Below the pieces are notes generated by a model. The model saw only the letters and a program-made list of their open reading frames with translations, was not told the origin of the DNA and made no database searches. The translations under genes were made by a program, and so were the position numbers. DNA of 48,079 nt from assembly GCA_903915225.1 (NCBI GenBank), contig CAIWSB010000082.1, positions 1-48,079 of the forward strand, in the 5' to 3' direction. Every line of letters starts with the position of its first letter. Position 1 is the stretch's first letter. Positions 40,309-44,722 of this stretch are shown piece by piece. This stretch comes from an uncultured Candidatus Woesearchaeota archaeon. Its GTDB lineage: Archaea; Nanobdellota; Nanobdellia; Woesearchaeales; B29-G15.

Positions 40309-40424
40309 ATTAATCCCCCCCAAGTTAGTAATTGCCCGAAAAATAAAAACCTGCCGGATTACCGTCCAAAAAACCCCCAAAATTAGACCATCCAAAAACT
40401 ATTTAAACAGCCAATCATTTATGA

Positions 40425-40512
40425 GAAATGGCCCGACACAAGAGAGTGTCTAAGGGAGCTTACGAGCTAATCAAGCCATGAGCTTAGAGGTTAGTGGTGC
40501 GGGCTTCATTTC
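40425..40512 (+). ncRNA. candidate structured RNA in the dnaG leader
   Basis: A closed fold: GAAATGGCCCG (40425-40435) pairs with CGGGC (40500-40504), a TT bulge, then CATTTC (40507-40512), an 11-bp base stem. Inside are ACAC/GTGT around AAGAGA, and CTAAG/CTTAG enclosing AGCT-TACG-AGCT. A TATA (CTATTTAAAC, 40399-40408) puts the transcript start at about 40425-40429, exactly where the stem begins. dnaG starts 117 bases further on, with a strong GGAGGT. It is either a separate small RNA of about 90 bases or a 5'-leader element. Not a tRNA, 5S, SRP or RNase P RNA by eye. Confidence 0.5.
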
Positions 40513-40628
40513 ATATTCACTAGGCAAGCATCATGATCACACAATTCATTATCCATTTTTGGAAATCACCTGAGTAAATTTGCTTGTTCTTCGCGGATAT
40601 GAAACAAACGAGATGGAGGTAGATTCCG

Positions 40629-41912
40629 ATGGGAAAAATATCCCCGGTATCAGCGAAATATATCATTCATGCATCAATCAACATCAGTGGCGTTGTTGAT
40701 CGCCCAGATGTTATCGGAGCCATTTTCGGCCAGACAGAAGGGCTTCTCGGCGCTGAGATGGAGCTTAGGGAGCTTCAGCGCTCCGGCCGCATAGGCAGGA
40801 TTGAGGTAAATGTAGAAACCAGCTCCGGAAAAACCAATGGCAGCATAGAAATACCTTCTAGCCTGGACAAGTCAGAAACCTCAATTGTTGGGGCAGCTCT
40901 GGAAGTTATTGACAGGATTGGCCCCTGCGAGGCTAAGATTAGGGTTCACTCAATAGAGGATGTGCGAGTCTCCAAGAGGGAGTATGTCATAACCAGGGCA
41001 AAAGAGCTGCTCAGGGAGCTTCTCGACAAGTCATTGCCAGACAGCCAAGAGATAGCTGACGAAGTCGCCCAGTCTGTGCGTGTTATGGAGCTCACCAATT
41101 ATGGGCGTGAGAGGCTACCCGCTGGACCCAATCTGGATGATTGCGATGAAATCATCATTGTAGAGGGTAGGGCAGATGTTATCAACCTCCTGAAGCATGG
41201 CATAAAGAATTCAATTGCCATGAACGGCACAAATGTCCCTGAGACAATAAAGGAGCTTTCCAAGGGCAAGATAGTAACTGCCTTTGTTGATGGAGACAGA
41301 GGCGGAGACTTGATAATCCAGGAGCTCATGGAAGTAGCTGAAATAGATTACGTGTCAAAAGCTCCAGATGGCAAGGAAGTTGAGGAGATGGCCAAGAAAG
41401 AGATACACAAGGCACTCCGCAGCAGGGTCACAATTGACCAGTACAGGCTTGACAAAGGGTTGTCAAAGCCAGCACTCAGCAGCAGCCCAGAAGAATCTGA
41501 GAAGCCAAAGCCAAAGCTTGTCAAAGCAGCACCATCTGTTGCTGTGAAGGAGGAAAAACCAATAAAGAGGGAAGAGGAAAAGGACATCAGCGTGCCTGTT
41601 GGGGAAACATTCTTCCTTTCAGACGTGGACAGGACCAGGTTCAAGGAGATGGCAGACCAGCTTATTGGCAGCCGAGGGGCATTCCTGCTTGATGAGAAAC
41701 TGAAGGTCATGGGAAAAGTGCCACTGTCAGAGCTTTCTGCCTCGCTTAAAGACCTTGAATCAAAGGTGTTTGCCATTGTCATGGATGGGCCAATCGACAA
41801 GGATTCTGCAATGCTGGCCAGAAAAGCCAATGTTAAATGCGTCGTTGGACGCGAACTCAAGGCCGATGTTGGCAAGAGCAGAGTTGCATTATATGTGGCA
41901 GATGAACTCTGA
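40629..41912 (+). CDS. dnaG: archaeal DnaG primase-like protein
   Basis: 427 residues. In archaea DnaG associates with the RNA exosome and can synthesise short primers. The N-terminal domain ([32 protein letters not shown]) is the archaeal signature. [24 protein letters not shown] and [11 protein letters not shown] carry the Glu and Asp metal ligands. Residues about 280-330 form a Lys/Glu/Pro linker, followed by a C-terminal domain that in archaea contacts the exosome. Unlike most genes here it has a long leader of about 200 bases and a clear GGAGGT at 40616-40621. A GC hairpin terminates it. Confidence 0.94.
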
Positions 41913-41975: not shown

Positions 41976-43268
41976 TTATCCGCAGGCTCCGCTACTGCTG
42001 GCTGTGGTTGGGCTGGCGGCATATCCAAAGCCGGGCGATGGAGCAGCAGATGAGAGTTGCTGCGAGCACTCAGCTGGTGCCACTGCAAAGGCCTGGCAAA
42101 TCATCTTCAGCAATGAGGCAGCGTCACGGTTGAACACATTAACTGGAGCCTCATTAATAGCTAGCCCTGGCGAGCCGTGGATGCCGTATTTGTCATCTAG
42201 TGCCTTGTCAATAAACACTCGAGGGAACTGGGGTTTACCTTGGTTGTCTTTGGTCCAGAGGCTTTGGTTGTTCCAGTTCTCCAGAATCTTGAATTCTGTG
42301 TCAGCTGCGGTCTTGCAAGTTCCTAGCCTAGTTGTGTCTATGCCAGCCTTTGTGAGGCAGCCTGCGCCGTCACCTGCTTCCATGAAGCAAACAAGGTAAT
42401 CATAATACTTATCAGATTGCTCCTTCTGGATGCAGTACTGGGCCCATTCTTCCATTACTTCTTTCTCCATGTGCATGGAATAGTCAATGAACCTAACCTT
42501 CCAGTCGATCTTGTTACCAAGCAGCTTAAGCACAGGGAGCAAACCCTTTTCAGTTTGCGTTCCAAATGGGCAGTGGCTCATGACAAAGACTTCAACAAGA
42601 GGCTTGGCGCGCTTATTGTTTAGTATAGTGCAAGTATATTGCGTTGTGCACTTTGCATCTGCACAGTCAACCAGGCCGTTTCCGTTGTCGTCTTTGCCGT
42701 TGTCACAGATTTCAGGATTTGGGTCATAGGCAGCGCCTATCCTCAAATTCAGATACTTTCCAGCAGGTTCCAGGTAATTCTGAATCTTGCTGAAATTAGC
42801 GTTGGTCTTTACGTCGTCAGTAAACATTATTGCTGGCAGGTACGTAATATTGATGTCTTTGTAGAGTTTTAGACCAGCAGCGTCATTGTAATCCAGCTGC
42901 TTTACAGTAAGCTTCGGGAAAATCCCTTGGAGTTGGCTTAAAATGTTTGTAACTGAGCAGCTTGTGCAGCGCTTGTCGTTTAGCACAATCATAGCATTAG
43001 TTGCAGGCAAATCACCGCCAGATGAAGGGATTGTGGTTGTTGTTGGGGTTACTGGGCCAACTCCCCTCATTGCTAGGAATATGACAAAGGCAATTACTCC
43101 AAGCAGCACAACGCCAATTGCCCACATGGCTGGTTTTGGCATTCCTTTCTTCTTGGCAGCCTTCGGCTTTTCTTCTGCAGTCCCGTGTGCTTTCCTCACA
43201 TGGTTATGCAGGGCACTTTTTGTTGGGAATTCTTTATCACATTTATCGCATTTGTAGCCATTTTCCAT
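41976..43268 (-). CDS. C2H2 zinc finger - TM - exterior thioredoxin-fold protein
   Basis: 430 residues. Residues 5-30 are a C2H2 finger (YKCDKCDKEFPTKSALHNH...H), then a Lys-rich segment, one TM helix (MWAIGVVLLGVIAFVIFLAM, about 48-68), so the finger faces the cytoplasm. Outside: a thioredoxin-like domain with DKRCTSC, a Ca-binding-type motif CDNGKDDNGNGLVDCADAKC, and a DsbA/GILT-like domain with SHCPFGTQTEKGLLPVL (one Cys in the active-site position) and cis-Pro loop HGSPGLAI. It ends in GACG. Likely a thiol oxidoreductase or isomerase for secreted proteins. It follows the parvulin gene by 13 bases and has GAGAGG before the ATG. A longer start at 43307 is unsupported. Confidence 0.85.
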   Translation of the reverse strand: MENGYKCDKCDKEFPTKSALHNHVRKAHGTAEEKPKAAKKKGMPKPAMWAIGVVLLGVIAFVIFLAMRGVGPVTPTTTTIPSSGGDLPATNAMIVLNDKRCTSCSVTNILSQLQGIFPKLTVKQLDYNDAAGLKLYKDINITYLPAIMFTDDVKTNANFSKIQNYLEPAGKYLNLRIGAAYDPNPEICDNGKDDNGNGLVDCADAKCTTQYTCTILNNKRAKPLVEVFVMSHCPFGTQTEKGLLPVLKLLGNKIDWKVRFIDYSMHMEKEVMEEWAQYCIQKEQSDKYYDYLVCFMEAGDGAGCLTKAGIDTTRLGTCKTAADTEFKILENWNNQSLWTKDNQGKPQFPRVFIDKALDDKYGIHGSPGLAINEAPVNVFNRDAASLLKMICQAFAVAPAECSQQLSSAAPSPGFGYAASPTTASSSGACG

Positions 43269-43281
43269 TTTTATTTCCTCT

Positions 43282-44658
43282 CTATGATTGGGCCAAGAGG
43301 GCATCAATCACCTCTTTGAAATCTGCTTTTTCCTTGGCAATATCGTTCTGGCCCTCGTAGAAGTTGCCAATTCGGACATATCTGCATCCAAAAACAAATG
43401 TTGGAACACCGCGCCCAGGGTTGACCTTGGTGAAAAGGTCTTTCTCGGTAGTTGGGACTGCGGTTTCAACAATTGGAGTCAGGAGATCATCCCCCGTATC
43501 CAGCTGCCAGTGGTAAGCGGCAATCTTGCCCTTATCCACATAGTCCTTGACGACACTATCAAACCCATCCTTAACCCAAAGGCAATGCGGGCAGGTGGAT
43601 GTGGTGAAGAGCCTTATTATTGGTTTGCCGTTCTCCTTGCAGATATCGCCACCTTTGTCGTCAAATGAGGCGAGTTTTGTTGTAGTTGCTGCCGGTTTAG
43701 CCACCAGCATTGTTTTGATAGTGGCTTTGGCCTTTAAGTCCGCAAGGTCCTTTAGGAGCAGTGTGTTCTGCTGCTGGAGCCTTAGCTGGCTTTCAATATC
43801 TGCTTTGGCTTCATCAAAGGTCATATCCCTGGGGAGGCTCCTGTCCAGTAGCTTGATAATGTGGTAACCATATTGTGTCTTTACAACCCCTGAAATCTTT
43901 CCCACATCAAGAGCAGATGCTGCCTGATAGAATGTGGCATCCAAATCGCCCTCTTGGAACCAGCCGAGGTCTCCCCCATTTGGTGCAGAGGAATCGAAAG
44001 AGTATTTCTTAGCAAGCACAGAGAAGTTGCCCCCAGCTTTTAGTTCAGCCAGGATGGTTTGAGCCTTTTCGCTGGAGTTTACGATAATATGGGCCGCGTG
44101 TATCTTTGCAGGGACCTTGAAGCTGGCTTTGTTTGCATCAAAATACGCCCTGAGCTTTGCCTCAGAAAGGTCAATCTGAGGAGTAAGGGTAACGTTGAGG
44201 TATTTCAATATGAGGAGTCTCTCCATCATGTCCTTCTTGAATGCGTCAAATGAGACATTCTGCTGCTCCAGAAGTTTTTTGAAGTCCGCTTCAGTGGTTT
44301 GTGTCTGGGTGAAGTATGCAGTCATGGTGTCGGTGTATTCCTTCTCACCTACACTCAATCCCTTCGCCTTGGCTGCCTGCTGAAGGACCCTATTGTTAAT
44401 CAGTTGATCTAGAATTACAGAATCATTTGGAATCTGACCACTTACAGGTGATTTTGATATTAGATCCTTAATCTGTTGAATCTCTGAATAGTAGATTGGC
44501 TCGCCATTGACTGTGGCAACAATCTCACTCTGAGTCCCTTTTGGCAAGTAATGCCTCACCAGAATGAAAGCAACTCCCAGTAGGACAACAATAGCCAGTC
44601 CAATCAAAGCCATGAAGACCGGTTTCCGAATGATACTCTTCTTACTCTTCTTCTTAGC
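43282..44658 (-). CDS. parvulin foldase (SurA/PrsA-like) fused to a thioredoxin domain
   Basis: 459 residues. A signal anchor (about residues 14-35) follows a basic N-terminus. Then comes a SurA_N-like region (ATVNGEPIYYSEIQQIKDLI...LDQLINNRVLQQAAKAKGL), a complete rotamase domain (HAAHIIVNSSEKAQTILAEL, FSFDSSAPNGGDLGWFQEG, YGYHIIKLLDR) and a C-terminal thioredoxin-like domain with FTTSTCPHCLWVKDGFDS (CPHC, the DsbA active-site sequence). It would isomerise prolines and exchange disulphides outside the cell. GGTGG lies 5 bases before the ATG at 44658. It sits between the secreted Cys-rich genes and the thioredoxin/zinc-finger gene. Parvulins are rare in archaea. Confidence 0.9.
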   Translation of the reverse strand, partial: AKKKSKKSIIRKPVFMALIGLAIVVLLGVAFILVRHYLPKGTQSEIVATVNGEPIYYSEIQQIKDLISKSPVSGQIPNDSVILDQLINNRVLQQAAKAKGLSVGEKEYTDTMTAYFTQTQTTEADFKKLLEQQNVSFDAFKKDMMERLLILKYLNVTLTPQIDLSEAKLRAYFDANKASFKVPAKIHAAHIIVNSSEKAQTILAELKAGGNFSVLAKKYSFDSSAPNGGDLGWFQEGDLDATFYQAASALDVGKISGVVKTQYGYHIIKLLDRSLPRDMTFDEAKADIESQLRLQQQNTLLLKDLADLKAKATIKTMLVAKPAATTTKLASFDDKGGDICKENGKPIIRLFTTSTCPHCLWVKDGFDSVVKDYVDKGKIAAYHWQLDTGDDLLTPIVETAVPTTEKDLFTKVNPGRGVPTFVFGCRYVRIGNFYEGQNDIAKEKADFKEVIDALLAQS

Positions 44659-44722
44659 CATAAACACCACCCATTAAATGATTCTCCTTTGGAATCCCCC
44701 GATATACTTAAAGCTTGTGGTA

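Follow-up and report, generated by a model that had tools for sequence, protein, structure and literature searches.

A predicted box H/ACA guide RNA for 23S rRNA helix 69, conserved upstream of dnaG in an archaeal class

Just upstream of the dnaG-type primase gene in the window (the whole stretch of DNA analysed here, 48,079 nt from an uncultured Woesearchaeota archaeon) lies a short element that can be folded into a compact RNA. The question raised by this locus is whether such an RNA controls the gene behind it or acts on its own, and a first-pass annotation had left the choice between a riboregulator in the leader and an RNA that stands alone. The second of these proposals is borne out by an H/ACA anatomy, covariation with helix 69, a promoter position of its own and copies found away from dnaG in two loci (L083 and L117), while a dnaG riboregulator is unsupported for this element. 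We consider it highly probable that the product of positions 40430–40508 is an archaeal guide RNA of the box H/ACA type that acts in trans on helix 69 of 23S rRNA. The predicted guide is an RNA of a known kind, a member new to the catalogues and almost universal in this archaeal lineage; what is new about it is its conservation across the class, its near-fixed place before dnaG and the conserved leader behind it.

Fold and conservation of the RNA

BLASTN searches with the leader recovered its core from further families within the order. A covariance model built from a seven-sequence alignment (R1; 76 positions, 20 pairs) matched 293 of the order's 353 genomes, in almost every case with a single copy, and also matched many genomes in other orders of the class. 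Across 82 aligned homologues, 93.4% of cells are paired, compared with at most 43% in slid controls. Compensatory changes, which the first-pass annotation had suggested looking for in relatives, were found, with double changes in 15 of the 20 pairs, and none of 500 shuffles reached the observed covariation on any measure.

Rfam, the other resource suggested at the outset, yielded no relevant family for either the window (up to E 10) or its relatives (up to E 1–5). A tRNA/tmRNA search of the element found none, and among riboswitch families and self-cleaving ribozymes we know of none that matches. Together with a single-sequence folding score that is modest and only suggestive (88 nt; z = −2.15, with 8 of 200 shuffles as good), the empty Rfam result could be read as the mark of a chance fold in an AT-rich intergenic stretch. 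However, hundreds of homologues and strong covariation stand against this reading, which the covariation test refutes and to which we assign a negligible probability.

The supported fold is a single rod, about 76 nt long in relatives, in which the lower stem leads through an internal pocket to the upper stem, followed by a canonical kink-turn and an apical hairpin, with an ANA/NCA box at the 3′ end. The consensus of the 82 homologues reads AGCCCG-N-CAC, GAGARUA, CUCAA-UGGA-GCUUACGnnnnnCAAGC-NAU-GA-nCUUGG, RGUUA, GUG-NNN-CGGGC-NACA. Because these parts match the published anatomy of archaeal guide RNAs (PMC4652768, PMC7991803, PMC2584109), the element is identified as a probable box H/ACA RNA. 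Its features in the window are as follows.

40430–40508, + strand: predicted box H/ACA guide RNA (model R1 match 40430–40507, 89 bits, E 5e-20, plus the last base of the 3′ box)
40431–40439, + strand: lower stem, 5′ strand (GCCCG 40431–40435, CAC 40437–40439), paired in 99.6–99.8% of cells
40442–40447, + strand: left (5′) guide strand GAGAGU, predicted to pair with ACUCUC of helix 69 (target scan, rRNA covariation)
40449–40454, + strand: upper stem, 5′ strand UCUAAG, pairing with 40483–40488; five of six pairs change on both sides
40455–40482, + strand: kink-turn and apical hairpin (consensus GGAGC...GC-NAU-GA in the alignment), with GA at 40456–40457, stem GC at 40458–40459 / 40475–40476, bulge CAU at 40477–40479 and GA at 40480–40481
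40483–40488, + strand: upper stem, 3′ strand CUUAGA (covariation in the alignment)
40489–40493, + strand: right (3′) guide strand GGUUA, predicted to pair with UAACU of helix 69 (target scan)
40494–40504, + strand: lower stem, 3′ strand (GUG 40494–40496 and CGGGC 40500–40504, with a 3-nt internal loop between them)
40506–40508, + strand: ACA-box position, UCA in the window (box counts over 82 homologues)

The lower stem consists of five plus three conserved pairs around a 1x3 internal loop, in keeping with the roughly 7–9 bp expected of an archaeal H/ACA RNA, and six of these eight pairs show double changes. An 11-bp base stem had been described at this place. Its inner part, GCCCG/CGGGC (40431–40435 / 40500–40504), is paired in 81–82 of the 82 homologues, but the outer 6 bp, GAAAUG/CAUUUC, are unseen even in the two congeners and, if formed, would mask the 3′ box. 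A multi-branch architecture with inner hairpins, proposed along with it, did not survive the comparison either, since two of the four pairs of the first such hairpin (ACAC/GUGU) could form in no more than 4 and 5 of the 82 relatives. In the alignment, the kink-turn has NAU as its three-base bulge, after which both strands carry tandem G.A, and the GA stem counts nine layers, or ten with the purine mismatch at the pocket, within the 8–11 of the H/ACA criterion.

The 3′ box is ACA in 48 homologues, UCA in 15, AUA in 12, AAA in 3, CCA in 3 and GCA in 1, such that 63 of 82 carry ANA and the others NCA. The window's UCA lies 17 nt from the upper stem, where 14–16 nt is canonical; the distance is 14–15 nt in relatives with a shorter internal loop (L104, L112). 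Genes for Cbf5 and Nop10 are present in the window's genome.

The predicted target in helix 69

Helix 69 in the 23S rRNA of the same genome reads 5′-GGAG-UAACU-AUA-ACUCUC-UUAAGG-3′, and the two pocket strands pair with it as GAGAGU:ACUCUC and RGUUA:UAACU (6 + 5 bp), lengths that suit the 5–8 nt and 5–6 nt usual for the 5′ and 3′ guide strands of such RNAs. When these strands were scanned against the 16S and 23S rRNA of this genome with a strict two-base gap, helix 69 was among the candidates but was outscored by several of the rest. Once the gap may span two to four bases, it ranks first across both rRNAs, and none of 300 letter-shuffled pockets equals its score anywhere in them. The main argument for this target is covariation rather than score.

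Guide and target were first compared in 14 genomes that have both; seven of these join GAGAAU guides to AUUCUC, and the other seven, all from the order, join ACUCUC to GAGAGU, save for one (G097) whose guide reads AAGAGU. In later samples GAGAGU and ACUCUC occur together in 24 order genomes, and matched guide–target changes extend to further genomes of the class. Because the GAGAGU/GAGAAU switch coincides with the split between order and class, it supplies few independent guide–target events; the changes in f94 and f119 are events separate from it. Two genomes (G358, G372) have a helix 69 of GAUUCUC, with G1918, and a guide GAGAAUCA that places a C where the rRNA has G1918, while a third of the same family (G414) has AAUUCUC, with A1918, and the guide GAGAAUA. 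The same GAUUCUC helix accompanies the guide AGAAUCA in G461, a weak model match (E 0.85) that nevertheless lies upstream of dnaG. In family f95, G442 carries ACUCUC in helix 69, and sister guides read GAGAGAUA in place of the class GAGAAUA. Weaker left guides also occur in some relatives (G411, G361 and genus g37). The left guide of genus g37 has diverged to UGCGUUA (G291, G038, G292; loci L158, L156, L162), and against it the helix 69 of G291 reads ACCCUC, which leaves a short pairing.

The pairing geometry is imperfectly canonical. With RGUUA and GAGAGU fully paired, three target bases (AUA) rather than two stay unpaired, or else a bulged target A is needed, and three unpaired bases are unfavourable in Pyrococcus (PMC4652768). 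For the Haloferax helix-69 guide, published models likewise leave a third base unpaired and invoke alternative registers for two pseudouridines (PMC4652768, PMC2584109). The window-type guide is one U shorter than that of G281, whose guide GAGAGUUA is the exact complement of the order-common U1917–C1924 and leaves U1915–A1916 unpaired, as a canonical pocket does. This irregularity might be taken to mean that the H/ACA RNA serves a site other than helix 69 or is an orphan guide. We judge that very unlikely, given that shuffled pockets find no equal site, that several guide and target changes match, and that other archaea use H/ACA guides for helix 69, as do eukaryotes (PMC2584109, PMC4652768). 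The predicted target is very probably Ψ1915 and/or Ψ1917 (E. coli numbering), with U1915, U1917 or both as the possible modified base.

The fold, its conservation, the guide–target pairing with its covariation and the presence of cbf5 and nop10 were computed here, and from them a mechanism can be sketched. L7Ae would bind the kink-turn, and Cbf5-Nop10-Gar1 would bind the lower stem and 3′ box. GAGAGU and RGUUA would then pair with both sides of the helix-69 loop (5′-UAACU-AUA-ACUCUC-3′), and the paired pocket would present U1915 and/or U1917 to Cbf5, which would turn the base into pseudouridine.

Another H/ACA-like hairpin, built in the same way (model R2), abuts the 5′ side of the guide RNA in 31 of 74 loci searched (L037 1424–1501, L050 1424–1501 and 29 further loci); a search of the window's own genome and genus found none. 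Its pocket, AAUGGGU / ACACUC, fits the 23S A-loop GGGUGU-UC-ACCCAUU in G009, G014 and G100, which carry the hairpin beside the guide RNA, whereas G000 and G002, which are without it, read ACCGAUU. The predicted target of this upstream hairpin is U2554/U2555 in the A-loop.

Position upstream of dnaG and the leader in between

The elements that link the RNA to dnaG in the window are the following.

40400–40407, + strand: TATA-like promoter element TATTTAAA (sequence; TATA peak in relatives)
40523–40590, + strand: dnaG leader hairpin A (GGCAAGCA 40523–40530 / UGCUUGUUCU 40581–40590), separate from the guide RNA, a possible cis element
40615–40620, + strand: Shine-Dalgarno GGAGGT of dnaG (sequence)
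40629–41912, + strand: dnaG-type primase gene (427 aa), found next to the RNA in 80 of the 82 aligned loci

A TATA box had been noted upstream, positioned to put the 5′ end of the transcript at the stem. This agrees with the element at 40400–40407 and with the conservation of a TATA box some 28 nt ahead of the RNA: in the 55 relatives that lack an abutting hairpin on the upstream side, TATA-like boxes peak at 27–32 nt from it. Together these place the 5′ end about there. The long dnaG leader with its GGAGGT is likewise present as described. The RNA would be made from the promoter just upstream, probably either sharing a transcript with the dnaG leader or being released from it by cleavage. We infer co-transcription with dnaG from position and from the absence of a terminator-like site between the two in a scan for simple consensus sites. 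Beyond dnaG, two neighbouring genes on the minus strand (41976–43307 and 43282–44670) encode, judging from their translations, membrane-anchored proteins with thioredoxin-like cysteine motifs, one beginning with a C2H2 zinc finger and the other with a parvulin-like domain; they look like an exported thiol/foldase pair.

In 80 of the 82 aligned loci, dnaG lies downstream on the same strand, at a distance of 114–569 nt (median 201). In the dnaG loci of Bathyarchaeota, Aenigmatarchaeota, Methanospirillum and other archaeal groups, R1 found no match, so that within the groups sampled the link to dnaG is confined to this class. Such synteny, and a kink-turn that L7Ae could bind, would also suit a cis-acting riboregulator of dnaG, be it a riboswitch or an element bound by L7Ae or another protein, with no guide function. 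We see only a slim chance of this. The spacing to dnaG is variable, and the most conserved unpaired bases are the complement of helix 69 and change along with it. Moreover, an obligate cis position fails in the two relocated copies, one of which precedes a histidine-phosphatase-type gene away from dnaG (L083) while the other lies between other genes with no dnaG (L117), both with fold and pocket intact. Because it is freestanding in these two loci, the RNA very probably acts in trans.

The guide RNA's sole tie to dnaG control is its very constant upstream position, and the stretch behind it, 40513–40628, is a better candidate for such control. A conserved hairpin, UAGRRCAAG...CUUGUUCUA, lies between guide RNA and dnaG there and in the leaders of L037–L124; when its arms are anchored solely by their sequence motifs, 27 of 33 loci can still make the adjoining inner pair (C-G, U-A, A-U or U-G). 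UUCAY/AUCAY motifs, which the loop of hairpin A carries, number 346 in 80 leaders, where shuffles give 129 (sd 8) and the opposite strand has 66, and with either strand considered their density in the window is highest in 40513–40628. Folding of this stretch in the window was no better than chance. The region may be a control region of dnaG.

Several further observations concern the same leader. A second, similar hairpin, GAAGGAG...AUCAUGUUCAY...CUCCUUCUA, follows hairpin A, ahead of the dnaG Shine-Dalgarno, in many members of the order (among them L038, L040 and L068); in some it holds a short ORF, preceded by a GGAG and opening with ATG TTC, and may also be a leader peptide. The window itself has a possible 14-codon ORF (ATG ATC ACA ... 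TAA) at 40533–40577, in the loop of the leader hairpin. A box C/D RNA on the reverse strand of the leader was considered and dropped, as no box D was seen.

A further reading gives the rRNA guide a second role in setting dnaG expression, as an RNP or through its processing from the dnaG transcript, which would add to the guide reading rather than replace it. The extreme synteny across the whole class favours this, as do the hairpin A and UUCAY/AUCAY repeats conserved between RNA and dnaG and the fact that DnaG is an RNA-binding subunit of the archaeal exosome (PMC7667871). On the other hand, synteny by itself is no proof of regulation, and the two relocated copies suggest guiding that is independent of dnaG; we hold the dual role to be possible but doubtful. 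More speculative still is a composite dnaG leader, in which one H/ACA guide, sometimes two, would be cut from the 5′ end of the transcript and the remainder, with its UAGRRCAAG/CUUGUUCUA hairpin and UUCAY/AUCAY clusters, would bind a protein such as an exosome or H/ACA component, coupling the level of DnaG or the exosome to ribosome maturation.

Significance and comparison with known guides

The pseudouridines of helix 69 are phylogenetically conserved, and ribosome function is affected by them (PMC3973299). The trans-acting guide proposed here is catalogue-ready for a very large, mostly uncultured archaeal lineage, in which R1 would annotate hundreds of genomes, and it indicates that RNA-guided rRNA modification is kept in the lineage's reduced genomes. 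Its class-wide link to dnaG, an exosome subunit, and the conserved leader raise the question of a coupling between RNA decay and ribosome making. Among the papers listed in our literature search, none dealt with H/ACA RNAs in Woesearchaeota.

Elsewhere, yeast snR191 and human U19 provide one H/ACA RNA for two helix-69 pseudouridines (PMC2584109), but these are eukaryotic snoRNAs and, unlike the present RNA, lack a kink-turn (PMC7991803). The 159-nt H/ACA sRNA of Nanoarchaeum equitans, between NEQ389 and NEQ392, resembles it in its DPANN origin and its kink-turns; it has two hairpins, lies at a different location and is the only H/ACA RNA reported there (PMC3491384). Among archaea, the known guides for the helix-69 site are Pf7/Pab40 (HgcG), Afu4 and the Haloferax HP2 hairpin. 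Hvo2/HP2 of Haloferax volcanii, the proposed guide of Ψ1956 and Ψ1958, shares the helix-69 target (PMC2584109, PMC4652768) and, like the present RNA, needs a third unpaired target base or alternative registers; it differs in being haloarchaeal, and was compared by its published description. Closest in kind are Pf7.3/Pab40.3 (Pab40 being HgcG, Rfam RF00064), Af4.3 and the Methanocaldococcus jannaschii motif, which likewise join an H/ACA hairpin and a kink-turn to the same rRNA site and guide pseudouridine L2016 in helix 69 of P. abyssi or the equivalent position elsewhere (PMC4652768, PMC2584109). The HgcG covariance model matches neither the window nor its relatives, so that the present RNA is not filed as a member of that family, although it would work like its third hairpin. 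Pf7 and Pab40 are tandem H/ACA hairpins, whereas the present RNA, next to dnaG, has one hairpin in the window and two in many relatives; Pf7.3/Pab40.3 and the present RNA are alike in that each may occupy the final place in a tandem array of H/ACA hairpins.
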